Shown: piece after piece, positions 7,925 to 25,940 of the stretch
How the letters are laid out: each line of letters starts with the position of its first letter
How positions within the stretch are numbered: position 1 is the stretch's first letter
The notes under the pieces: generated by a model
What the model saw: only the letters and a program-made list of their open reading frames with translations
Told to the model about the DNA's origin: nothing
Database searches by the model: none
DNA from: a virus
Direction: 5' to 3' (one strand)
DNA: 64,000 nucleotides
Virus record (IMG/VR): IMGVR_UViG_3300017971_000008
Coordinates: 62,001 to 126,000 of that record
Made by a program: the position numbers and the translations under genes

Positions 7925-9736
7925 ATGGCGATATCCCCTGAGGAAGCAAAAGCGGCACGGGCGAGGCTCAATGCCTCAAGACCTAAGATTGTCAGCTCTA
8001 ATCCGCGGCAACAGCGACGGGACGTAGCAGCTTCTTTGCTTCCTGAGGGGGCCACTCTTAGCGTACCTGCGGGTCCTTCTCGACGTATGGGTACCTTTGA
8101 TCCTGCCTTGATGAGCAATTTCGTTGGTGGCGGTGGCGGTGGCCAGACTTTTCAGCACATGCAAAGGCCCTACCTTCCTGAGATCGAATCCCCGGATCGG
8201 ATACAGTACCCGACTGATCGCAGGATGGCGAACTATTATTGGAGGTTGTTTCACAAGTTCGATCCTGTGTTTGGTACCGCCATGGACATGTACTCCGAGA
8301 TGCTGGTTTCGGATTATGATGTGATCGTGGATGAAACCAAAGATAAAGAAATAAACGATACCGTGGACTTGATGTGTGAGAAGACGCACTTTCAGGAAAG
8401 ATGCCGCCAGATGGTGGTGCAGTACAATGTAATCGGTGAAGTGATTCCGCACACATTCTTTGATGAGGACTTAGGTATCTGGACGTATATCGCCATGCAC
8501 AACCCGGATTACATCGAAGTACAGGACTCGCCCATTATCGATATGGACCCGATCATCTCTTTTATACCTGATGACGCTCTCATAGAGCTTTTGTCGGATA
8601 GATCACCAGAGTCTATGGAACTCAGACAGTCCCTGCCCAGCGAGTTTGTGGCGAAGGTACTGGCCCGACAGCCTATCCGGTTGCAGAACTCAAACTGTTC
8701 TTTCATTGCCCGGAAGCTGAATCCTTACGATGAGAGAGGCACCTCCCTGGCGTCCAGGTTGTGGAGAATATGGATGGTGGAGGATGCGGTCTATGCTTCG
8801 ACGATAGCGACCTACCGGCGCCATGCGGCCCCTATCAAGGTGGCTAAATTGGGGGATGCCTCTACCAACTGGATACCCGAGCCTGAGGTAGAGGCCGAGC
8901 TGCTCTCGATGTTGAGCAGGATGGAAACAGATCCACAGGCGTGGCTTGTTTGGAACTATGGCATCCAGTTCGAGGCTTTTGGTACGACTGACAGGGCTGT
9001 CTCAATCAAAGGTGAGCATGATGTTATCGAGAAGGTGAAGCTCCTCGGGATGGGTCTTTCCAAGTCGTTCATGACGGGGGAGGTGACATACGCTAGTGCA
9101 AAGTCAGGTTTGCAGGTCTTTTTACGTAGGCTTTTGTCACTTCGTCAGTACCTCGAAGCTGTGTGGATCTATCCGAAATTCTTCAGGCCTATTTCCCTGG
9201 CGAATGACTGGATAAAGTCCAAGCCCAACGAGGTTGACCATGGTTACCGTGTGAAGAGGACTGCCCAGGAGCTTGAGGAGCAGAAGCTGATCATCATCCC
9301 CAAGCTCAAATGGCACAACAAACTGGACCCCGAGGTAGAGAGCGATGTGCTTCAGGCTTATCTCCAGATGGAAAAGTTCGGGTTCCAGGTATCGAAAGCT
9401 TCTGTCGGCGCCGTGGTGGATTTGGATTGGGAGAACGAACTCCGCAATTCCGCGGAGGAGTTCAAGAAGTCCAAGGAGATTGTGCAGGAGGTTCTCGGGC
9501 CTCAGATGGCCAATCAGTTCTGGATGGAGAAGGCCCCCAAGAAGCCTGGAGGGGCCGCTGGCGGCGGTGCGCCTCCTGGTGGCCCTGGTGGAGGGCAGAA
9601 GCCTCCTGGGGCGGCTGGAGCGCCTCCTGGTGGCCCTAAACCGGATGCAAGCGCACCTCCTGGGTCCGGTGAAGCCGGTGAGCCCGAGGGCGGCATCGAA
9701 AGCCCTGACCAGGGCGGTATGGGTGCTGACCTGTGA
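7925..9736 (+). CDS. portal protein
   Basis: This 603-residue protein matches the myovirus-type portal family by pattern. It has a basic N-terminus, then YYWRLFHKFDPVFGTAMDMY near residue 105, a long helical region with SKSFMTGEVTYASAKSGLQ near 380, and RLLSLRQYLE before a conserved FFRPISLAND-type segment. Portals form the dodecameric channel for DNA packaging at the head vertex. The last 70 residues are a low-complexity Gly/Pro/Ala tail in which an 18-base unit repeats exactly (9569-9586 and 9620-9637). Such a tail is not usual in the family and may be disordered in the tail-joining end. The stop overlaps the next GTG start. Confidence 0.85.
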   Translation: MAISPEEAKAARARLNASRPKIVSSNPRQQRRDVAASLLPEGATLSVPAGPSRRMGTFDPALMSNFVGGGGGGQTFQHMQRPYLPEIESPDRIQYPTDRRMANYYWRLFHKFDPVFGTAMDMYSEMLVSDYDVIVDETKDKEINDTVDLMCEKTHFQERCRQMVVQYNVIGEVIPHTFFDEDLGIWTYIAMHNPDYIEVQDSPIIDMDPIISFIPDDALIELLSDRSPESMELRQSLPSEFVAKVLARQPIRLQNSNCSFIARKLNPYDERGTSLASRLWRIWMVEDAVYASTIATYRRHAAPIKVAKLGDASTNWIPEPEVEAELLSMLSRMETDPQAWLVWNYGIQFEAFGTTDRAVSIKGEHDVIEKVKLLGMGLSKSFMTGEVTYASAKSGLQVFLRRLLSLRQYLEAVWIYPKFFRPISLANDWIKSKPNEVDHGYRVKRTAQELEEQKLIIIPKLKWHNKLDPEVESDVLQAYLQMEKFGFQVSKASVGAVVDLDWENELRNSAEEFKKSKEIVQEVLGPQMANQFWMEKAPKKPGGAAGGGAPPGGPGGGQKPPGAAGAPPGGPKPDASAPPGSGEAGEPEGGIESPDQGGMGADL

Positions 9737-11317: not shown

Positions 11318-12223
11318 ATGTCGTTTAGAAAAACAGCCCAGGTGCAATTCCTTGGTGTGCAACATAAAGGTTTATGGTCTAAGTCAGCTTCGCATTCAAA
11401 GTCTTCCTCGTTCTACATGGAAGAGGACGGCTCTATTGATGTTGAAGCTGCTCTTGATACCGTGGCAGACGCCTATCGGATAAGTCGAGACCCTCGAAAT
11501 TACCTTTTCATACCTCTCAGAGCAAACAGTGCCGACCGTCCCAACAACAACCTGGATGGCTGGGAACTGAACGAACTCCAAAGGTACGATGACATCGTCG
11601 GTGTTCCGGTATACCGAACCTATGATCTCAAACCTCATTTCGTGAACCACAATGCGGCAAACCTTACTTTGAGCCGCGGGGTAATTCTTGACAGCCACCT
11701 TAATACTCAGAACCCGGCAGACGATATGGTCAAGCAGGCTGTGTTCGAGGCAACAGGTAAAGAGGTTGACCGGGATATCTTTGTAGAGCTTCTGGTTGCA
11801 ATGGACACCACGAAGGACCCGGCTCTGGCCGAGGCCTATCGAAACGGTTCTGTAGACAGCTTTTCGATGGGTTGTGATGTTGTGGCAACCCAGTGTTCCG
11901 CTTGCGACAATGTAGCTACCAATGACTTTCAGCTTTGCAGCTGTGTTCGAGGAAAGCATTCCCGGATTCCCGTGGAGTGTCTTGATGGTGAGCGCAGACT
12001 GGCCTGGGAGAAGTGCATGGGCACTATTTTTCAGGAGATTTCAGCAGTAGACGACCCGGCTGATGAGACCGCTTTGGTTCAGGAGGGTATTCTCAAAGTT
12101 GCGGGTGCGAATGGTTTGAACAAACAGCAAATTCAGGAAGTAACCGCTTTTGTAGTACGGCATGCCAAGACTATGCCCGAGGCAGTGGCAGGTATTTTAA
12201 ACCAAGCTTTACAGGGTGGGTAA
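11318..12223 (+). CDS. putative prohead protease
   Basis: This 301-residue protein lies between portal and scaffold/capsid genes, where prohead proteases are found. A candidate catalytic His111 sits in HFVNHN and a candidate Ser183 in SVDSFSMG, reminiscent of the His...Ser-x-Gly pair of the herpes/HK97/T4 gp21 prohead protease fold. Immediately after the serine lies a Cys cluster (Cys186, 193, 196, 207 and 209, including CSAC and CSC) that could hold zinc. I recall this as a feature of a subset of myovirus proteases. Such enzymes degrade scaffold and trim capsid deltas and packaged proteins. Assignment rests on motif spacing and gene order, not on a full match. Confidence 0.6.
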   Translation: MSFRKTAQVQFLGVQHKGLWSKSASHSKSSSFYMEEDGSIDVEAALDTVADAYRISRDPRNYLFIPLRANSADRPNNNLDGWELNELQRYDDIVGVPVYRTYDLKPHFVNHNAANLTLSRGVILDSHLNTQNPADDMVKQAVFEATGKEVDRDIFVELLVAMDTTKDPALAEAYRNGSVDSFSMGCDVVATQCSACDNVATNDFQLCSCVRGKHSRIPVECLDGERRLAWEKCMGTIFQEISAVDDPADETALVQEGILKVAGANGLNKQQIQEVTAFVVRHAKTMPEAVAGILNQALQGG

Positions 12224-12227
12224 TCCA

Positions 12228-14168
<1,941 letters not shown>

Positions 14169-14978: not shown

Positions 14979-16280
14979 ATGGGAAATCCATACACAAGAG
15001 TCAGTCGTAAAAGTCGTCGTCCTGCCGTTCCTTCTCGTTCAGCGCGAAGGACCAGTAAGCCGCGTCGTCGCCCCATTACCGCAGCCCGTAAGCCGCGTCG
15101 TAAGCCTGCCGCAGCTCCCAAAAGGGGCCGTATGGCAGCGCGTCCGAAACGCCGGTTGACCTCCAAGAGGGATGAGGCTGTATTCGGTCGGGATGGTCAG
15201 TTCAATCCGCAACGATACGATTATGGTGGGTATGACCCCAAGCGTATTGCAAATGCGGTTGGCAATCGCAGACGCCCGATGTTCAACAGTCAGGGTGAGA
15301 TCAACGCCGACAACAAGCGCGATGCGCTGGTGCAGATCAAGCATCTGCTCGGTTCGGTTGGTCCCCGGCATCAGGACGCCCTGAGCCTGTACAATCCCAA
15401 CTCTCCCCAGGAGAAGATGAGCAAAGAAGCACGTAGGGATATCCTTGCTGCCGCGCTCACCGATCCTTCGGGTGCCGGTTGGCACGTTGTTGGTCAGGAA
15501 CTCGCTCTGCCGATCAAGCAGATCCTGGACTATGAAGGGTTCGCCCGGAAATGGTACCAGATCCGCGACCTCGCCCAAGGCGAACTGTTCCGCGTACCCG
15601 TGGATGTTCGTTCGGTGGCCTGGGTTGTCGGTCAGGACGGCCAGGTGCCCGAAGCACGGATCAAATCCAAGTGGATTACGCCGAAAGAGGATAAGATTGT
15701 TTCGTATCCCACCGTGGATATCGAGGACATCTACCACCTCAATTTCGACGTTCTGGACCGCGCCCAGGATACCGCCCGTCAGGAAATCGAGCTGGCTGAA
15801 GACAAGCTCGGCATCCTGCTGGCTGACGCCGCTTCGACCGCGCAGAACACCGTGACCACCTACTCGACTCTCGGTATCAACGCCCTTGAGGACGTTCGGT
15901 TCCAGGTTGAGAGGCACCGCCTCATGGTTGAGAAGTATTTCATCAACCGTGCGGAGCTTTCCGACATCATCAAGACCATGTCGGCTGCGGTGGACCCGGT
16001 TACCGAGCGTGAGTTGATCCTCGCGGGTCACATCGGCAACATCCTGAATGCCCAGATCCTGACTGCTGCCGGGACTGGCGTTGAGGAAGTGATTCCTGCC
16101 GGTACGTTCTACGCCACTACCGCCTCCGAGTACTACGGCGTGATGGGTATTCGCATGGACTTGTTCAGCGAACCCTTCAACAAGTACTCCCACATGGAAA
16201 CCGTTAAAGGCTGGGCCTTTGCGGAGATCGTGGGTTTCGCTTGCGCGAACTCGAAGGCCGTTGCCAAGGGTGTGAAGTAG
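14979..16280 (+). CDS. major capsid protein with basic N-terminal extension
   Basis: The ATG at 14979 follows GGACGGAAG, whereas an upstream in-frame start would run far into the decoration gene. The 433-residue product has a folded part from about residue 140 with LPIKQILDYEGFARKWYQI, a long helix near 265-300 and a C-terminal region with GVMGIRMDL. This fits HK97-fold major capsid proteins of SPO1-like and related myoviruses. Residues 1-64 contain 26 Lys/Arg and no Asp/Glu, which is exceptional for a capsid delta region. That part should face the interior and may be removed by the protease upstream. The gene is followed by a long hairpin. Confidence 0.8.
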   Translation: MGNPYTRVSRKSRRPAVPSRSARRTSKPRRRPITAARKPRRKPAAAPKRGRMAARPKRRLTSKRDEAVFGRDGQFNPQRYDYGGYDPKRIANAVGNRRRPMFNSQGEINADNKRDALVQIKHLLGSVGPRHQDALSLYNPNSPQEKMSKEARRDILAAALTDPSGAGWHVVGQELALPIKQILDYEGFARKWYQIRDLAQGELFRVPVDVRSVAWVVGQDGQVPEARIKSKWITPKEDKIVSYPTVDIEDIYHLNFDVLDRAQDTARQEIELAEDKLGILLADAASTAQNTVTTYSTLGINALEDVRFQVERHRLMVEKYFINRAELSDIIKTMSAAVDPVTERELILAGHIGNILNAQILTAAGTGVEEVIPAGTFYATTASEYYGVMGIRMDLFSEPFNKYSHMETVKGWAFAEIVGFACANSKAVAKGVK

Positions 16281-18099: not shown

Positions 18100-18420
18100 A
18101 TGAAACATTCAGATTTTATTAAGGGTGTGAACAGGAATGTAGCCAAAACTCTTAAAGCACAAGAAGACTTGGAGAACGACCTGACAGAACTTCAGGAAAA
18201 GCTTATGCAAGTAGAGTCTAAGATGAATGCTGTTGAATTTGCTGTACGGCAGCTTAGAAGTTTGGCTCCAGATAGGATATCTGAAGTTGAAATGGCTAAA
18301 TCAGGTTGGGCTGACTCTGTGTCTCGATATTCGGATGATGCTTATTATTCTGTTGAGGATTTGCTTAATTTGATTATAGAAATACAACAGTTAGAATCTT
18401 TTAATCGTGGTGCGTACTAA
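18100..18420 (+). CDS. leader-bearing small coiled-coil protein
   Basis: The 106-residue product begins MKHSDFIKGVNRNVAKTLKA, closely resembling the N-terminus of the gene at 21566 (MRHEKFMKDVRRNAGRAVKG). Residues 20-60 are a heptad-like coiled coil, and the rest is acidic and helical. The shared basic leader on different bodies suggests a sorting signal. AGGAGAAACTG precedes the start. No enzymatic motif. Confidence 0.55.
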   Translation: MKHSDFIKGVNRNVAKTLKAQEDLENDLTELQEKLMQVESKMNAVEFAVRQLRSLAPDRISEVEMAKSGWADSVSRYSDDAYYSVEDLLNLIIEIQQLESFNRGAY

Positions 18421-18423
18421 GTA

Positions 18424-18819
18424 ATGCTGACTTTCTTCAAAAACATCGGTTCCTTTTTCAAGAGAGGGTATCGCTGGTGCAGGAAGAACACCGCACTGAC
18501 CTGGACGGTCATTGGTGGTCTTGTCATCGTCATCGTGTACATCGCTATGCGTAAGGGTGCCGATGCCATTGAGGTAGCTGGGATAATCAACAGGATTGCC
18601 AGACAGAAGATCAAGATAGCCGACATCAAGGACCAGATAAACGACCTGAAGGTGAAGAAGGCGGTTCTGGTGGAGAAGGACTCAGCAGCTGGTGAAAAGG
18701 TTGCGGTCATCGATAAGAAGCTGGAGAAGCTGGACAAGCAGCTCGTGGACTACAAGAATTCTGTGAAGGAAATGAGCGATAACGACAAGCTCAAGGAATT
18801 TGAAAGCCTGGGCTATTGA
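18424..18819 (+). CDS. single-span coiled-coil membrane protein, spanin-like
   Basis: This 131-residue protein has a basic, aromatic N-terminus (MLTFFKNIGSFFKRGYRWCR), one membrane segment at about 25-42, and then a long Lys/Glu/Asp-rich coiled coil to the end. An N-in/C-out type II layout with periplasmic coiled coil matches inner-membrane spanins of Gram-negative phages. The neighbouring gene at 19106 has a signal peptide and coiled coil and might be its partner. Alternative: a membrane-anchored assembly factor. Confidence 0.45.
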   Translation: MLTFFKNIGSFFKRGYRWCRKNTALTWTVIGGLVIVIVYIAMRKGADAIEVAGIINRIARQKIKIADIKDQINDLKVKKAVLVEKDSAAGEKVAVIDKKLEKLDKQLVDYKNSVKEMSDNDKLKEFESLGY

Positions 18820-18832
18820 ATAGGAGAAGACG

Positions 18833-19102
18833 ATGAGACTCAGAGGGTTATCGGATAAAGGTGTTTGCCGGATTTCCAAGAAGGTTGCGGCAAAAAAAGC
18901 GGTCAGTGATGATCAGACCTGGGACAAGATAGACTTTCTCGTAGAAATGTTGGGCAACGAGGAGTTCATTCTGGCCACCTACAAAGGTATGGGCAGAGAG
19001 GAAGCTGACAGCATGATCGATTTCCTGTTCCAGACCTATGACTTGGGTAGGGAGTGGGATATTCATACTGGGGCGGTAGATCCTGACGATGAGGACTACT
19101 AA
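18833..19102 (+). CDS. leader-bearing small acidic protein
   Basis: The 89-residue product starts MRLRGLSDKGVCRISKK, one of four closely similar leaders (others at 19555, 25019 and 25566). After the leader and a Lys/Ala linker the body is helical and ends very acidic (VDPDDEDY). An AGGAGAAG site precedes the ATG. The body has no motif I recognise. Confidence 0.55.
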   Translation: MRLRGLSDKGVCRISKKVAAKKAVSDDQTWDKIDFLVEMLGNEEFILATYKGMGREEADSMIDFLFQTYDLGREWDIHTGAVDPDDEDY

Positions 19103-19105
19103 GTC

Positions 19106-19555
19106 GTGAAGTTCCTCATCACCATATTCCTGGTCATATTTCTGCCGTTGGCGGGGGTGGCCGATGAGATCGACCGGGCATCGATAACCTACAAACAGAC
19201 CAAAGGTTATTTCTTCAAGCAGGAGATCGGTGACCGGATGCTCGTTGACCTCAAGGAGCTTCAGTTGGTTCGCGGGAAGGAAGCTCTGCTCCAGGAGAAG
19301 ATCGGGTTGCTCAACGAGAGGCTGGAACTCAAGGATTTGAATATCAAGACTTCAGAGGAGATAGCGGAGAAGTGGAAAGACACTCACGATGCTGAACATA
19401 CCCTCCGCATGGATGAACGAAAGTTCTATGAAAAGAAGCTGGCCGAGAAAGATGCCTGGTACAGGAGTCCCGCATTTCTGCTGATGACGGGGCTGATTAT
19501 CGGCGCTGGGTTGAGTATCGGTGTGGCCTTTGGAATAAATGAAGGGAAAGATTGA
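19106..19555 (+). CDS. secreted coiled-coil protein with C-terminal membrane segment
   Basis: The GTG start gives a 149-residue protein with a signal-peptide-like N-terminus (KFLITIFLVIFLPLAGVADE, cut likely after GVA). A coiled coil follows at about 50-115, with a hydrophobic Gly-rich segment at about 122-142. Layout resembles i-spanin or other envelope-spanning lysis proteins, though the C-terminal hydrophobic segment is unusual for a spanin. It lies close to the holin-like and single-span coiled-coil genes. Its stop overlaps the next ATG (TGATG). Confidence 0.45.
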   Translation: MKFLITIFLVIFLPLAGVADEIDRASITYKQTKGYFFKQEIGDRMLVDLKELQLVRGKEALLQEKIGLLNERLELKDLNIKTSEEIAEKWKDTHDAEHTLRMDERKFYEKKLAEKDAWYRSPAFLLMTGLIIGAGLSIGVAFGINEGKD

Positions 19556-20229
19556 TGAGACTCAAAGGAATTACAAGTAAGGGCATGCAGCGGGTCGCTA
19601 AGACTGTTAAGGGGCAGGGTTCCTCTCCTGTGGATGATTTGGAGAAGCACGGTACTGTCACCATTCAGTATCTTTATGGGGGTGGAGAGATTTCCATAAA
19701 TGAGATCGATGACAGCTTTTTCGTGCACGTTTCCTTCCCAGATGGAAAGTCTGAGGAGTTCGATGCTGATGTGGGTTCTACTAATGCAGAGGAAGTAGTT
19801 GACCGTGCTATGGGGGTCTATGAGGAAGGTCTGGGCGGTGCTTATGCTGAGGAAGGCTATGAGAGGTCTTTCGACTATAAGTGGCACGTATACGGTAGTA
19901 GTTCTGTCCTGCGAGTTGGTGAACGCTCGGACATTGGTAGACTTCTTAGTCGCGGCATTCATGCTGGGGGCTACGATGCCGCGTATGAGGGTGGTGACTG
20001 GGAATCGAATCTGGAGAGACGGTACGAAGAGGGGGGAGACTACTACGTAGAAGACGAGACTTTTGAAGCGGGTTATATCCTCGCTTTTATCCCTGGTAGT
20101 ACCGACAACTGGATGTGGGACGAGGATTATCTGGATGCTTGGAACGCATATGGGAAAGATGCCCAGGCTCTAGGAATTGCGGTAGATGACCCTTGGGAAG
20201 CCCAACAGGAAGATGATACGTGGGATTAG
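19555..20229 (+). CDS. leader-bearing protein of unknown function
   Basis: ATG at 19555 is chosen because TGATG coupling and the leader MRLKGITSKGMQRVAKTVKG match the sister genes. A TTG at 19552 would add one residue. The 224-residue product continues with GQGSS, a motif also seen in the 21566 gene, and a very acidic, Tyr/Trp/Gly-rich body that includes GGAYAEEGYERSFDYKWHVY and ends DDPWEAQQEDDTWD. I recognise no family. It may be a packaged protein, judging only from the leader. Confidence 0.55.
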   Translation: MRLKGITSKGMQRVAKTVKGQGSSPVDDLEKHGTVTIQYLYGGGEISINEIDDSFFVHVSFPDGKSEEFDADVGSTNAEEVVDRAMGVYEEGLGGAYAEEGYERSFDYKWHVYGSSSVLRVGERSDIGRLLSRGIHAGGYDAAYEGGDWESNLERRYEEGGDYYVEDETFEAGYILAFIPGSTDNWMWDEDYLDAWNAYGKDAQALGIAVDDPWEAQQEDDTWD

Positions 20230-20257
20230 TGTGATAGCAAAGCTAAGGAGATAAAAA

Positions 20258-20641
20258 ATGAGTAGCTTACTCACAATAGTAGGAACGCTCACGTTCCCAA
20301 CAGTAAAAGGTGGACCTGATACCAGTACGGTACTCGGTGCCCCCACAGTAACCCCGTCCTCATCTTCAGGACCACAACTGACCTACGAGGAGGGTGGCTC
20401 AAGCTCGTACCTCGTTGCGGTTGGTGCGCCTGTGGCCATCCCGTTCGGTACTTTGGCAAGTGCTGACGCGGTGTACGTGGGTTCTGACCAGGCGGTGGAC
20501 ATCGTTCTGGATGGCGGGTCCGAGAAGATAAGCCTTGCGGCTGACGGTTTCATCCTGCTTTCCAAGGCAGGTGTTGCGTCGATGACCGTTGAGGCCAACG
20601 CCGTGGATGCCAATGTGGTGGTGATTCTTCTGGGAGACTAG
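20258..20641 (+). CDS. beta-rich virion-type protein
   Basis: The 127-residue product is almost free of Lys and Arg and rich in V, A, G, S and T, with alternating hydrophobic strands (SLAADGFILLSKAGVASMTV). Composition resembles capsid decoration or neck proteins rather than enzymes. AAGGAGATAAAA precedes the ATG. No family is recognised. Confidence 0.5.
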   Translation: MSSLLTIVGTLTFPTVKGGPDTSTVLGAPTVTPSSSSGPQLTYEEGGSSSYLVAVGAPVAIPFGTLASADAVYVGSDQAVDIVLDGGSEKISLAADGFILLSKAGVASMTVEANAVDANVVVILLGD

Positions 20642-20644
20642 GGA

Positions 20645-21556
20645 ATGATAATCAATGCTGAACCAGGATTGGATGTCCCGAGCGTAGTGGACATGATTGA
20701 GGTCATGCGGCTCAACTCGAATCGCGTGGCCGATGTCACCTTACTGGATGAGAATGGAGACCCCCAGGACATTATCGAGGAGACTCCCGCATCGGGGCTT
20801 CCTCGGGGTGAACTTGATCTGGACATCACGGACATCGGCGGGACCTCCATCTACCAGGAGGACTACTACCCGCCTTCAGTAGGGATTCCCGCTGACCGCA
20901 GGATAGTCCACAACAGCACGGGCAAGTATTCCATCAAGGTGCTGCCCACTGACATTTCCACTAGCGGAACCTACCTATTCAACTGGCATGCCCGGTATGA
21001 CTCGGACTCCGAGGACATCTACCGCACCCAGGTCATGCAGGTGGTGTCACCGCGGGTCCTGTCGTTGTTACCGACCTTCAGACTGATTATTGATAAGAGT
21101 GTGAAGCGTGTAGTCCCAGAATCCATGTGTTTTTTAGGTTACAGCGATTCTCAACTGATCGTCTACCTCATGCAGGGTCTTTCATATATCAACAGCAAAC
21201 CGCCCTACCCTGTGTGGAACTACCTGGAGAACTACCCTATTGAGCAGTACTCGGACGTACTCATCAGGTCGGCGCTGTACATCGGGATCACCTCGCAGTC
21301 TTTGTTTGCGATAGACACCGATGTTCCTTCATACAATGACCAGGGTCATAGCTTTGTGCTTCAGCACTTTCAGGCGCTGAACACGATGTTGAACCAGCTT
21401 CGTGCGGAGCTGGACAAGCAGATACCTGATTTGAAGAAAAAGTTTGTGAGGTCCGGGACGGCCATGATCGAGACGCGGCTGGGGTACCTCTGGTACAACC
21501 TGATAGCCTCGTCGCCTTCAGGGTCCACGTTCAGGAATTACTATTTTAATAGCTAG
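20645..21556 (+). CDS. putative head-tail connector or neck protein
   Basis: This 303-residue protein has a beta-rich N-terminal half containing IYRTQVMQVV after a DSDSED turn, and a helical C-terminal half with long amphipathic helices (LNTMLNQLRAELDKQIPDLK). The combination of an Ig-like N-terminal part and helical bundle resembles neck proteins of several myoviruses, but I cannot name a family with confidence. The start lies 3 bases after the preceding stop. Confidence 0.45.
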   Translation: MIINAEPGLDVPSVVDMIEVMRLNSNRVADVTLLDENGDPQDIIEETPASGLPRGELDLDITDIGGTSIYQEDYYPPSVGIPADRRIVHNSTGKYSIKVLPTDISTSGTYLFNWHARYDSDSEDIYRTQVMQVVSPRVLSLLPTFRLIIDKSVKRVVPESMCFLGYSDSQLIVYLMQGLSYINSKPPYPVWNYLENYPIEQYSDVLIRSALYIGITSQSLFAIDTDVPSYNDQGHSFVLQHFQALNTMLNQLRAELDKQIPDLKKKFVRSGTAMIETRLGYLWYNLIASSPSGSTFRNYYFNS

Positions 21557-21565
21557 GAGAGACCG

Positions 21566-21859
21566 ATGAGACATGAAAAGTTTATGAAGGATGTGCGGAG
21601 AAATGCTGGCAGGGCTGTCAAAGGTCAGGGTGAATCCTGGGGGGATGTTGCCGACCAAAGTGCCGAACTTCAGGAGAAGTTTGAGGTTGCGTTGGACGAT
21701 GCTGCTCAGGCGTATGCTCGGTCTTTGCAGGAGTTCTCTAGCAGGGAGGACTTGGATGAGGCTCATGGTTTTGAGGGGTTCCTTGAAGACTATATGGCGA
21801 ATCATGATGTAGGGCAGGAGCTGCTGGATTGGATAGGGCAGTATTTGCGAGGTTATTAG
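21566..21859 (+). CDS. leader-bearing small acidic protein
   Basis: The 97-residue product starts MRHEKFMKDVRRNAGRAVKG followed by QGES, a class II leader shared with the gene at 18100 and the KGQG element shared with 19555. The body is short, acidic and helical with no motif. GGAGAGACCG precedes the ATG. Confidence 0.55.
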   Translation: MRHEKFMKDVRRNAGRAVKGQGESWGDVADQSAELQEKFEVALDDAAQAYARSLQEFSSREDLDEAHGFEGFLEDYMANHDVGQELLDWIGQYLRGY

Positions 21860-21877
21860 GAGACCTCACTGTAACCC

Positions 21878-22156
21878 ATGCCAACAGAACGAATAAAAGT
21901 GAACCTGTCTGACGCGGCTGACCTGGCCACGCAGAAGTTTTTCAAGCTGCTGGATGTGGCGTCCTGGGACACGTTGAAGAACAAGGTTCAAAGTCCTCCT
22001 GCGGGAGGCCGCGCTTCTCGTAAGCAGAGACTGGCCGAGGCCAGGAACCGGCAGGCTCAACTCTTCGGCGGTGAGCAAGCCGCCCAGGAGACCCCGGTGG
22101 GCGCATCTGACAAGACGATGGATGAGCTTGTCAAAGAGATAGTGGAGGGACTGTGA
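21878..22156 (+). CDS. uncharacterised small helical protein
   Basis: This is a 92-residue protein with an N-terminal helical part, a Pro/Gly/Arg-rich linker (PPAGGRASRKQRLAEARNRQ) and an acidic tail. It sits between two leader-bearing genes but lacks the leader itself. The stop overlaps the next start (GTGATG). A head-tail joining accessory role is possible, and no family is recognised. Confidence 0.5.
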   Translation: MPTERIKVNLSDAADLATQKFFKLLDVASWDTLKNKVQSPPAGGRASRKQRLAEARNRQAQLFGGEQAAQETPVGASDKTMDELVKEIVEGL

Positions 22157-22428
22157 TGAAGGTTCTGAGAGAGTTTAGAAAAACAGGTCAAGGTGCCTGG
22201 GCTATTAATCCAGAACATTTGAAGGATATGGAAGAGTTCTATGCTTCTTCTCTTGTCGCATCTTTACATGCTTTTGAAGAGATTTATCAGTTGGCTAAGA
22301 CTGCGGCTGATCCTGATGAGATGACCGATAAAATGGAGGCCCTGGCGACCAGCATGGAGGGTATGCCCGACATCTTGAACGAAATCACCATGCGGATCTG
22401 GAACGAGTATCTCAGGAATAACAGGTGA
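22156..22428 (+). CDS. small helical protein with leader-like N-terminus
   Basis: ATG at 22156 overlaps the previous TGA, and a GTG at 22153 is also possible. The 90-residue product starts MKVLREFRKTGQGAWAIN, which is basic and contains GQGAW, similar to KGQGES (21566) and KGQAAW (24209). The body is helical and acidic. I treat its membership of the leader family as possible rather than clear. Confidence 0.5.
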   Translation: MKVLREFRKTGQGAWAINPEHLKDMEEFYASSLVASLHAFEEIYQLAKTAADPDEMTDKMEALATSMEGMPDILNEITMRIWNEYLRNNR

Positions 22429-22432
22429 AATA

Positions 22433-23458
22433 GTGGACTGGTCTCGCGGAAACGGATGTAATGGACTTGGTACTGGTGCCGTGGGGTACTGGGGCAGGGA
22501 CATTTACATGCGTATCCAGGCTGACCAGCAGCATGCCAAGGAACGCGCACTTCTGATGAACCAGATTCAGGCTGGCGGGATGCGGTTCGACCTGTGGCAG
22601 GATGTGGAATCAGGTCAGCAATGTTCCTGCTACAAGGAGATCAATCGATCCGCCGATGACAAGTGCATGGCCTGCCATGGTAGAAGGTACGTTCCTGGCT
22701 ACCTCAAGTTCGGATACGAGACACTGTGGATGTCGGCGGTGGACACCGATGTCACTTTCACCAACACCGAGATAACCACCGAGTTCAAGTCCTCAAAGGT
22801 GGTTCTGTCCACAGGTTCCCTGAGTGGAACCGTGGAATCAGGTGACAAGGCCTTCAGCAGGACCGAGATAGGATCTGTTTGGGAGGCCGATGCCCAGACC
22901 TATATCAGGATAGCAGGTCAGTCGGATGTGACCGTGGAGTACTCTCTGGACTCGGGAGGTACCTGGTCGGGCATTTCAAACCTGGCCACGGCGAACCCAG
23001 CCTCAGGGGTGATTCGTTTCAGAGCCACTCTGACGCGCTCTACGGCAGCGATACTCTCTCCCTTGTTCGAGATAGTCAGGGCGAGGTATGCGACGATTCC
23101 TGTGGCGTCTGAGCAGCCTGACGGGACATTCCGCGTGGGGCCATGGGTGTTGCTGATGAAAAGCGTCCCGGTGGAGAAGAAGACGAAGAATGAACACGGT
23201 GACAGGATTAATCAGGATAATACTAAAATGTGGACTGCGGGTCTTTCCATGTTTGACTCTTCAATCGAGGTAGGTTCAACTGGAGAACTCATACGAAGCA
23301 AGCACACTGTTTTTAAGGCATTGGACGGGGTTCAGGCTGGAACTTTTTATGTCATGTCGGACTGGATGCTCAGTGATCCTTTTGGTATGATCATTGTCAG
23401 CCAGACGTTTACGGCGCGTATGGCCGATCCTTCCGGGCCGTACTATCTGATATGGTAA
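22433..23458 (+). CDS. virion or connector protein with N-terminal zinc site
   Basis: The GTG start gives a 341-residue product. A Gly-rich N-terminus leads to CSCYKEINRSADDKCMACHG (residues 64-83), a CxC...CxxC zinc ribbon, followed by a beta-sandwich region with STGSLSGTVESGDKAF and VTVEYSLDSGGTWSGI (carbohydrate-binding or laminin-like strand pattern). The last 100 residues are a second beta domain. Position suggests a head-tail connector or tail completion protein. Family not recognised. Confidence 0.5.
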   Translation: MDWSRGNGCNGLGTGAVGYWGRDIYMRIQADQQHAKERALLMNQIQAGGMRFDLWQDVESGQQCSCYKEINRSADDKCMACHGRRYVPGYLKFGYETLWMSAVDTDVTFTNTEITTEFKSSKVVLSTGSLSGTVESGDKAFSRTEIGSVWEADAQTYIRIAGQSDVTVEYSLDSGGTWSGISNLATANPASGVIRFRATLTRSTAAILSPLFEIVRARYATIPVASEQPDGTFRVGPWVLLMKSVPVEKKTKNEHGDRINQDNTKMWTAGLSMFDSSIEVGSTGELIRSKHTVFKALDGVQAGTFYVMSDWMLSDPFGMIIVSQTFTARMADPSGPYYLIW

Positions 23459-23462
23459 GATT

Positions 23463-23918
23463 GTGGCTATTTTAAATAAATTTTGTCCTAAGTGTGAGAT
23501 GACTAAATCTGTAAAATATTTTTATAAAAATGCTGCGGCTCCTGATGGCTTGGACTCGCGTTGTAAAGAGTGCACCAGTAAGCTTGATAAGGAGAGAAAG
23601 AGTAAGCTTAATTATCCTAGGAGAAAGGCCAAGTCGGGATCTGCTGTTGAGGCACTTGGTTGTACGGGAGAGGAGTTTCGTGTTTATTTAGAGGCTAAGT
23701 TTTACCCTCATCCAGAGACTGGAGAGGAGATGACCTGGAATAACTGGTCACAGACAGGTTGGCATATTGATCATATTGTTCCTCTTTCTTCTGTTGATCT
23801 TTCGGATGCAGCGCAGATGCTGAAGGTGTGCCATTATTCAAACACGCAACCTTTATGGATGGTGGAGAATTTAAGAAAAGGTTCTAAACTTTCCGATGTT
23901 GGGGGCGACGATGGTTGA
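23463..23918 (+). CDS. free-standing HNH endonuclease, one zinc finger
   Basis: The 151-residue product starts (GTG) with CPKC...CKEC, a zinc finger near residues 8-39. The HNH core HIDHIVPLSS is near residue 101 and NTQPLWMVENLRKG near 130, giving the two His and the Asn of the motif. The gene is clearly more AT-rich than its neighbours and lies between two structural genes. It is a mobile homing-type endonuclease rather than a phage function. It is a relative of the larger gene at 48976. No intron or intein is evident, since both flanking genes look intact. It ends 8 bases inside the next gene. Confidence 0.8.
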   Translation: MAILNKFCPKCEMTKSVKYFYKNAAAPDGLDSRCKECTSKLDKERKSKLNYPRRKAKSGSAVEALGCTGEEFRVYLEAKFYPHPETGEEMTWNNWSQTGWHIDHIVPLSSVDLSDAAQMLKVCHYSNTQPLWMVENLRKGSKLSDVGGDDG

Positions 23919-24186
23919 CCTTCAAGACAAAGAAAACCTCACCGTAAAAGACATCATAGAGGACAGTCTTCTGGTGTTTGAGGAGGTCCTTCCAGAGACG
24001 CAGGCCATACAGGACATAATGGCCGAGCATGGGGAGGAAGCGGGTCTTGGTGTAATCTATATGATAGTGGCCTTCTGTGCCCATGAAAAGTACATGCAGT
24101 ATAAGGAACAGGTGGCGAGAATACCTTCGGATACCGAAGCTCTGAAACCTTTTCCACATCTTAGGTTTAGAAGCTTGGTTAATTAA
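23911..24186 (+). CDS. uncharacterised acidic helical protein
   Basis: I start at ATG 23911 (MVDLQDKENLTV) overlapping the HNH stop by 8 bases. An ATG at 23896 is in frame but lies deeper in the HNH gene. The 91-residue product is helical and acidic, with VIYMIVAFCAHEKYMQYKEQ in the second half. No motif is recognised. The overlap suggests the HNH gene inserted precisely at this gene's 5' border. Confidence 0.5.
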   Translation: MVDLQDKENLTVKDIIEDSLLVFEEVLPETQAIQDIMAEHGEEAGLGVIYMIVAFCAHEKYMQYKEQVARIPSDTEALKPFPHLRFRSLVN

Positions 24187-24208
24187 ACCGATATGGTGAG
24201 GTGCTAAA

Positions 24209-24820
24209 ATGAGATTGAATATGAAACGTCTGGCCAGGGTTATCAGGGCCAATGGAGACGATGAAGAGAAATCGGAAAAGCCTTCCAAGAAGTGCAAACA
24301 GGAAGACATGATCAAGTTCCTCAAGGAGAACCCGAACCCCACTGATGAAGAGTTTCACGAGTGGGCTGAGGGCAACGGTTTCGATGTTCCAAGTGCAGAG
24401 GCCAAGATGTACGAACTGGCCACCATGTATGTTCGGATTCTGAGTGAGGGAAGGGCCGATGAGGATGGCATAGACTCGATTGATGTTGATCCTAAAGAGC
24501 TTGAGCTGGGAAAAGAGATCGAATTGGAACACATCGACGACGAGGATGTGTCCGAGGAGATTGCCCTGGACCATCTGGCCGAGATGCCTGACTACTACAC
24601 CGAGTTGAAGAAGATGGAGGAGAAGGGTGCTCGTCTGGTTAAGGGTCAGGCTGCTTGGAGTCACGTTCAATATCTTATTGGTCTTATTGAAAAGTATATG
24701 GATGACAGTGAAATGTTGGATGCTGTTTTGGATATTCTAGGGGTTCAGAGGTCTGAGGAAGTTCTGGAGAAGATTATTCAGACGCATCCATCACTTTCGT
24801 ATGAGCGAGGGGAGGGTTGA
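24209..24820 (+). CDS. DUF5661-like protein with extra helical tail and leader
   Basis: The 203-residue protein starts MRLNMKRLARVIRANG, a basic leader-like segment. Residues 35-140 contain NPTDEEFHEWAEGNGFDVP, EGRADEDGID, and IALDHLAEMPDYYTELKKME, a pattern I recall from the phage-associated DUF5661 family of unknown function. After this comes ARLVKGQAAW, which resembles the leader ends of sister genes, and a 60-residue helical tail. Codons in the tail are AT-richer than in the first part, which fits a fusion of two genes at an internal leader. Confidence 0.55.
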   Translation: MRLNMKRLARVIRANGDDEEKSEKPSKKCKQEDMIKFLKENPNPTDEEFHEWAEGNGFDVPSAEAKMYELATMYVRILSEGRADEDGIDSIDVDPKELELGKEIELEHIDDEDVSEEIALDHLAEMPDYYTELKKMEEKGARLVKGQAAWSHVQYLIGLIEKYMDDSEMLDAVLDILGVQRSEEVLEKIIQTHPSLSYERGEG

Positions 24821-25016
24821 GGGTTCTTTGCGTTTGACTGATTTGGATTTGTCTGATTTTAAAATGGAAAATGGAAGAGAAATCTTCGATTCAGACGAGA
24901 AGGTAAGATGTTTTGAGAAATATCTTCAAGAGAAAACGGAGAAGATTTTTAAGCAGTATCAAGAAGCTCATATGAAGGCGTTGGTGCTCTCAAAGTATAG
25001 GATTATAGGGGTGTAA
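24801..25016 (+). CDS. small basic/acidic helical protein, start uncertain
   Basis: ATG at 24801 overlaps the previous gene by 20 bases and would give 71 residues. An in-frame TTG at 24828 follows GGGAGGGTTGAGGG and would give 62 residues starting MRLTDLDLSDF, which fits the MRL-type leaders of neighbouring genes better. The rest is a charged helix. Reality of the gene is likely, because the stop abuts the next start, but modestly supported. Confidence 0.4.
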   Translation: MSEGRVEGSLRLTDLDLSDFKMENGREIFDSDEKVRCFEKYLQEKTEKIFKQYQEAHMKALVLSKYRIIGV

Positions 25017-25018
25017 GC

Positions 25019-25561
25019 ATGAGGCTCAAAGGGCTTTCAGATGCGGCTATGAGGCGGGTTGCTGCTCTTGATACCTGGCGTAACCTGGATTCAGACATCG
25101 AAGATGCACTTCAGCATCAGATGGTAGAGCTTGATTTACCCAATGGGGTACTGGACCCCAGCTTTTTTGATATTAAAAAGGTAGAGTCCTTTGACTACCG
25201 GGTACTCATGGAGAACTATGCCCCTGATGTATTCGGGGGATGGGGTTTTGGCGAGTTCTTGGAGTCTGGGTACTCTGCTGAAGAGATCGAGGATGAACTA
25301 GCTTCTTTTCGTGGAGATGATTGGGCTGGACTTGTGTTGAACGAGTGGCTTGTGGAGGGGTTCCCTGCGATAGTGGTGATCGACGGTTTTCCTGATGAGC
25401 TTTCTGAACACCTTGTTGATGAGGAACTTCAGGATTATGCTATAGTATTTAATGAGATTTCGGATGGTCGTGGACGGGCTTCGGCAGCTTATGGTTTTGG
25501 TATTGAGACACTCCCTGCTGTAATACTGACACCTAAAAACCTTTATGAAGGGGAATGGTAG
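25019..25561 (+). CDS. leader-bearing protein of unknown function
   Basis: The 180-residue product begins MRLKGLSDAAMRRVAALD, the clearest class I leader. The body is acidic with Trp/Phe/Gly-rich turns (DVFGGWGFGEFLESG), a hydrophobic strand (FPAIVVIDGFPDE) and a C-terminal ETLPAVILTPKNLYEGEW. This alternation looks like an alpha/beta enzyme or toxin-like fold, but no catalytic motif is evident. Placed directly before a nucleotidyltransferase-like gene with the same leader. Confidence 0.55.
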   Translation: MRLKGLSDAAMRRVAALDTWRNLDSDIEDALQHQMVELDLPNGVLDPSFFDIKKVESFDYRVLMENYAPDVFGGWGFGEFLESGYSAEEIEDELASFRGDDWAGLVLNEWLVEGFPAIVVIDGFPDELSEHLVDEELQDYAIVFNEISDGRGRASAAYGFGIETLPAVILTPKNLYEGEW

Positions 25562-25565
25562 ATGG

Positions 25566-25940
25566 ATGAGGCTCCAAGGTCTTTCAGATATGGCAGTGAA
25601 AAGAATAGCCATGAAGAATCTCACCGAGGCTCCTTTGAAAGGTTGGACTTTGAGTGAGGCACAGGACTTTTTGAGTGCTGTTAAGCCGATATTTGAGAGG
25701 TATGGGGTTGATTTAGAATTGGTTGGTTCCATAGAGTCTGTTGGTTCATCTGAACATGACTTGGACCTGGTTATGGGTACGCCTTCTGATGACATGGACG
25801 GGGCTTGGTTCGATGCTGTTGAGGCCGATCTTCTGCGGGAATTTCCAGGGGCGGTTATGGAAGGTAATATGTACGAACCTTTAGAGACTCTGCACCTTCC
25901 CGATGGACGGATAGTAGACTTTTTCTACGGGGAGGACTGA
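25566..25940 (+). CDS. leader-bearing nucleotidyltransferase-like protein
   Basis: ATG 25566 is chosen because it yields the leader MRLQGLSDMAVKRIAMKN. An upstream ATG at 25545 overlaps the preceding gene. In the 124-residue product, LELVGSIESVGSSEHDLDLVM (split as GS, a short loop, then SEHDLDL) matches the GS...DxD active-site pattern of minimal (MNT-like) nucleotidyltransferases. A later HLPDGRIVDFFY strand could supply the third Asp. Such enzymes transfer NMP to proteins, RNA or small molecules, and several belong to toxin-antitoxin pairs. The leader suggests the enzyme travels with the virion. Confidence 0.6.
   Translation: MRLQGLSDMAVKRIAMKNLTEAPLKGWTLSEAQDFLSAVKPIFERYGVDLELVGSIESVGSSEHDLDLVMGTPSDDMDGAWFDAVEADLLREFPGAVMEGNMYEPLETLHLPDGRIVDFFYGED

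Follow-up and report, generated by a model that had tools for sequence, protein, structure and literature searches.

Small proteins encoded between the head and tail genes of this virus share a basic N-terminal leader on unrelated bodies. The window analysed here is a stretch of 64,000 nucleotides, bases 62,001-126,000 of a 157,936-base IMG/VR virus record (here G000). The leader is conserved across related phages and comes in two interchangeable types. Its genes lie among late genes, its bodies are acidic, one of its cargoes in a relative is ArdA, and a genuine head protease is encoded nearby. In the absence of virion proteomics, the leader is likely a capsid-targeting signal for injected proteins, T4-like in function and different in sequence. 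An earlier note, made from the sequence alone, had proposed such a signal; its observation holds and extends further than first noted.

The earlier note had reported alike starts on ORFs 18833, 19555, 25019 and 25566, and the start coordinates of all the ORFs it named were correct. With a PSSM built from the four reported leaders, we scored every possible start in the whole record, 5,047 over the two strands. Sixteen ORFs, on the + strand only, reached about 39-54 bits, and the next-best non-seed start had 4.4 bits. The seed set included two junk starts, and their 29-32 bits are a result of training on them. Profile-free clustering of N-termini recovered the same 16 ORFs (type A, core motif G[IL][STP]Dx[GA][LMIV]xR[IV]A) together with five more that form a second family (type B); the same clustering of shuffled N-termini gave 0 clusters. 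The four reported starts are real type A leaders, and the related form claimed for 18100 and 21566 is type B, with three further members outside the window. A 17th type A copy (45917) was detected with a core profile of 12 positions. The 16 clustered ORFs lie in three groups, at 11.5-13.6, 46.7-50.4 and 80.8-87.6 kb of the record, and two of the three are outside the head-tail gap.

Type A leaders in the window are carried by 18833..19102 (+, 89 aa; MRLRGLSDKGVCRISKK), whose body family is kept with the leader in G008, G009, G014 and L054; by 19555..20229 (+, 224 aa; MRLKGITSKGMQRVAKTVKGQ followed by G); by 25019..25561 (+, 180 aa; MRLKGLSDAAMRRVAAL), which has an acidic body without known relatives; and by 25566..25940 (+, 124 aa; MRLQGLSDMAVKRIAMK). 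The body of the last is predicted by modelling to be like a pol-beta-type nucleotidyltransferase. In the structure model residues 1-22, the leader, are unstructured, and the PDB matches were pol beta, lambda, mu and Cid1 (lowest E 0.02, probabilities reaching 0.99). Scanning with the single protein of window 25940 returned 0 relatives. Type B leaders begin 18100..18420 (+, 106 aa; MKHSDFIKGVNRNVAKTLKAQ and a coiled-coil-like body), where the leader ends LKAQ/E (slash at the leader end), and 21566..21859 (+, 97 aa; MRHEKFMKDVRRNAGRAVKGQ followed by G). The KGQG said to follow the leader was confirmed for 19555 and 21566.

The weaker versions claimed for two further ORFs fared differently. The protein of 24209..24820 (+) has a degenerate leader by sequence (MRLNMKRLARVIRAN) before a DUF5661 body (PF18905, E 2.2e-13), whose orthologues in three other records (G002, G012, L064) bear a type A leader. 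Its KGQAAW, however, is not the same element as the leader-end KGQG, because it sits well beyond the leader, around residue 145. The leader of the 90-aa ORF 22156..22428 (+) was not supported: it has no core, only KTGQGAW at residues 9-15, and was absent from the PSSM, core-profile and profile-free clusters; no body homologue was found when one was looked for. ORFs 25566 and 24209 had no match among annotated phages. Within the leader gap there is also a cysteine-rich HNH-like ORF (23463-23918), related to another in G000 (110976); both are likely homing endonucleases.

Searches with the major capsid protein (14979..16280, +; PHROG 2522, E 7.3e-62) gave 80 related viral loci, of which several were fetched in full. 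The core profile found 84 core-leader ORFs (G000, G002, G005, G008, G009, G011, G012, G014, L053, L054 and L064), so that the leader occurs, always on the coding strand, in at least eight related phage records besides G000. Next to no leader ORFs were found with this profile in three distant relatives (G003, W01, G016). Independent lineages are fewer than records because some leader-bearing records may be close kin (one protein of L064 is 75% identical to that of G012), and the leaders are partly related by descent, so that the counts are not independent. A tblastn search with the leader against 50,697 annotated phage records gave 0 matches, and a strict DNA pattern searched against 2.9 million viral contigs hit only three, all in the already known lineage. 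The leader alignment was too variable for a scan of the whole collection. The leader-bearing phages are uncultured and their host is unknown. One relative (L127/L054, QMZE01000009.1) was binned in an Archaeoglobales MAG, which is either a hint of the host or a binning error.

The claim that the bodies differ completely was confirmed, as the 23 leader proteins of G000 represent 23 body families. Taken together, the 84 core-leader ORFs, the type B ORFs and window 24209 give 90 leader proteins in 77 body families, and within any one genome no body is repeated. In G008 the leader precedes a complete ArdA anti-restriction protein, with position 1 of Pfam ArdA at residue 28 (E 5.8e-34). Two plasmid ArdA proteins begin without the leader, which in G008 is an added N-terminal extension. 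The DUF7249 body has a type B leader in the phage of the window (..RTAQ/EKGYQGW) and a type A leader in G005 (..VKAQ/EEGYQGW), with the junction just before the same AQE. Other cargo families are DUF5662, a ParB-like domain and a weak match to the McrBC-inhibitor family (E 2.7e-4). All 84 core-leader bodies are net negative, with a median charge per 100 residues of -15.3 versus -1.9 in the comparison set, 1,064 other small ORFs from these genomes (p 2e-40). ADP-ribosyltransferase-like motifs (YHATP, FHTT) were seen in bodies of G011 (24112, 24792, 27833, 22368), G009 (24893, 25678), G012 (85465) and L071 (9350). Such cargo is only suspected, from the motifs and one weak KptA match; a model of L169:1146-1601 had pLDDT 38 and did not confirm the fold.

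The claim that selection acts on the leader holds at the protein level, since several synonymous codons are in use, and vary freely, at its conserved residues. The targeting proposal of the earlier note would have been refuted by homologues that keep the body and lose the leader, and this was mostly not what we observed. Seven families of small stand-alone bodies are common to different phages and have members with the leader (degenerate in 24209), and their leader is mostly retained, in some cases in divergent form. Divergent leaders are found in L074, L071 and G014_86095, and a probable orthologue of the DUF5661 protein in G011/L081 has no recognisable core. The other exceptions are bodies fused in much larger proteins, as several cargo bodies recur leaderless within large multidomain ORFs of relatives. 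A 672-aa ORF of G011 joins the C-terminal body of window 19555 (residues 169-221) to that of G000_13526, and the segment before them resembles, as judged by eye, a conserved 203-aa G000 protein (148287). This suggests that fusion can replace the tag, because both bodies are joined behind the 148287-like segment.

The prohead protease-like gene that had been pointed out upstream is a head-maturation protease (11318..12223, +; PHROG 18299, E 4.3e-30), with His111, Asp125 and Ser183 invariant in 56 relatives, and is the candidate leader processor. It is followed by a scaffold-like charged protein (12216..14168, +), the candidate leader receptor, which aligns with the scaffold-like region of distant relatives. 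The portal protein is encoded at 7925..9736 (+; PHROG 16240, E 1e-72). The head-tail gap runs from the major capsid protein to the tail genes and includes 20645, which weakly matches a family of head-tail connectors; leader genes occupy accessory slots between late head genes. The scaffold-like gene is separate in G000 and fused to the protease in distant relatives without leaders. Leaders were present at 7 of 12 loci with this split and at 0 of 22 fused loci (Fisher p 1.5e-4). This contrast is no more than suggestive, since the counts were collapsed by eye and phylogeny confounds them.

Cleavage near KGQ-G was the weaker part of the original proposal. Of the 84 leaders, 55 have [AG]Q close to their end, where 6.1 are expected and the maximum in 1,000 draws was 13. 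This is about nine-fold enrichment despite variable spacing; roughly one leader in three has no [AG]Q. RAQ/E, similar to the leader end, is present in the scaffold of several relatives, and neither the major capsid protein nor the protease was found to have [AG]Q at a conserved site. We also weighed DGQ/FN in the capsid protein as a cut site and set it aside for lack of conservation. Cleavage after [AG]Q is plausible and unproven, and we would not lean either way. The leader itself is basic and amphipathic (helix moment 0.50 versus 0.29 when shuffled).

Targeting to the capsid for injection is the best reading because of the late-gene location among head genes, the ArdA cargo with its added leader, the acidic bodies, the confirmed head-maturation protease, and the precedents in T4 and P1. 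Packaging, scaffold docking, cleavage and injection are all inferred. Late in infection, the short basic amphipathic helix would dock its protein on the scaffold core as the prohead forms, and the head protease would then probably cut the leader off after [AG]Q. The acidic cargo would remain within the head and enter the host with the DNA, where it would disarm host defences or alter the host. Docking on the scaffold is an inference, to which the lack of leaders at loci with a scaffold-protease fusion lends some support. Several points stand against this reading: virion proteomics are lacking, the cargo is acidic where the internal proteins of T4 are basic, some leaders lack [AG]Q and the capsid protein and protease have no conserved site, the leader counts are not independent, and most leader-gene groups of G000 are outside the head-tail gap.

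The strongest alternative is targeting without processing, in which the leader leads proteins to the head or portal and stays uncut, with [AG]Q as the end of the helix. The leaders without [AG]Q and the lack of a conserved site in the capsid protein and protease speak for it. The enrichment of [AG]Q despite variable spacing speaks against it, as does the fact that types A and B have little in common except this end, where the DUF7249 swap joins. We consider an uncut leader less likely than not, though a serious possibility. It is unlikely that the leader localises newly made proteins to DNA, membrane or a replication compartment of the infected cell without packaging. A basic amphipathic helix would suit this role, and packaging has no direct evidence. 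However, leader genes are interleaved with late head genes, ArdA-like cargo is most useful at DNA entry, and the same bodies occur in large polyvalent-like proteins. Descent from a single family with a conserved N-terminus and a remainder diverged beyond recognition is very improbable. Leaders within one genome are alike and tandem, and some leader DNA is nearly identical. Against this, the bodies belong to distinct known families (ArdA, DUF5661, DUF5662, DUF7249, NTase-like), plasmid ArdA has no leader, one body bears two leader types, and nearly identical G011 leader DNA sits on unrelated bodies. That the leader is really an element of the DNA (promoter, ribosome site or recombination site) which happens to be translated is largely ruled out. 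Four or five G011 genes have near-identical leader DNA, suggesting that a stretch was copied, but there is no conservation upstream of the leaders, many synonymous codons encode the conserved residues, and similarity across phages lies at the protein level.

Capsid targeting of tagged, injected cargo is already known from T4, whose relatives have at least ten internal proteins recognised by a signal sequence (PMC12373910). After packaging, the T4 proteins are trimmed by the head protease; once injected, they inhibit restriction enzymes. As in T4, a short N-terminal sequence is common to otherwise unrelated, fast-changing small proteins from accessory loci, and a head protease is encoded near the leader genes. 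Anti-restriction cargo is matched by the G008 ArdA, in a relative and not in the window. An anti-restriction protein is most useful if delivered together with the DNA. The T4 leader is MKTYQEFIAEA, whereas the leader here has about 20-26 residues of other sequence. The two are not homologous by our core profile, on which T4 IPI, IPII and IPIII score -9 to -18 and members at least 18. Cleavage in T4 is at the T4 site, whereas the leader end here is [AG]Q, and there are many more cargoes per genome. By eye, type B (MKHSDFIK) is faintly like the T4 leader.

In phage P1, the N-terminal 30 residues of DarB direct this anti-restriction protein, or a reporter, to the capsid; that study found no consensus common to the P1 Dar proteins (PMC9024508), whereas here one motif is common to many. 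In SPN3US and phiKZ, the giant-phage head protease cuts N-terminal propeptides from head and ejected proteins (PMC10052503, PMC13282480). Some propeptides have only 20-24 residues, but most are long (111-254 residues) and cut after AxE, and the relevant sections of these papers describe no shared leader. Polyvalent proteins, proposed to be delivered with the DNA (PMC5512222), have overlapping cargo domains (Ard proteins, ParB-like, NTase), and some bodies here are fused in large proteins. Similar cargo here is, in contrast, mostly split into separate small tagged proteins. The window proteins are not multi-effector polypeptides, being small with at most one recognised domain each; only G011 24792 and the large ORFs of relatives depart from this pattern.

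Other shared segments were observed in these phages. ORFs of 40-54 aa just upstream of the protease (L055:4809, L065:5498, L105:3320, W01 55105) have a protease-like start, M[SA]FKKTG..., possibly a third shared N-terminal signal. Dozens of tiny ORFs in G002 (IMGVR_UViG_3300018080_000001, reverse orientation; about 1-15 kb and 153-169 kb), L026, L033 and L034 have a common start, MK[TIY]xGK...; 25 form one cluster, with diverse bodies and many SVRNSVWDSV-type repeats. G002 110128, 111637 and 112050 have near-identical starts (MKFSEFCKKVEAP) followed by repeats (QNQTPEICMAAVKQNG), and their start is by eye like T4 MKTF.EF. A segment of about 32 residues (YWxxYFxEYGKMWIRDIPRRI) is present, twice in some, in otherwise unlike proteins (G000 147107, 148921; G002 143779; G003 11858, 15765; W01 31281, 35420).

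Within the reach of our searches, this system is new in its sequence, lineage and scale, in its acidic cargo and in having interchangeable leader types. In a bolder reading, which we hold to be as likely wrong as right, this phage lineage has an address code of at least two interchangeable leader types that delivers a large, rapidly exchanged set of separate effectors instead of polyvalent fusions, and the code exists only where the scaffold gene is separate from the protease. If capsid targeting is true, the leader would be a sequence handle for picking injected proteins from raw genomes, and the 77 body families, most without known relative, would be candidate anti-defence or host-takeover proteins. 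T4-style tagged cargo would then extend, more abundantly, to a further lineage of large phages, with a possible new packaging signal.
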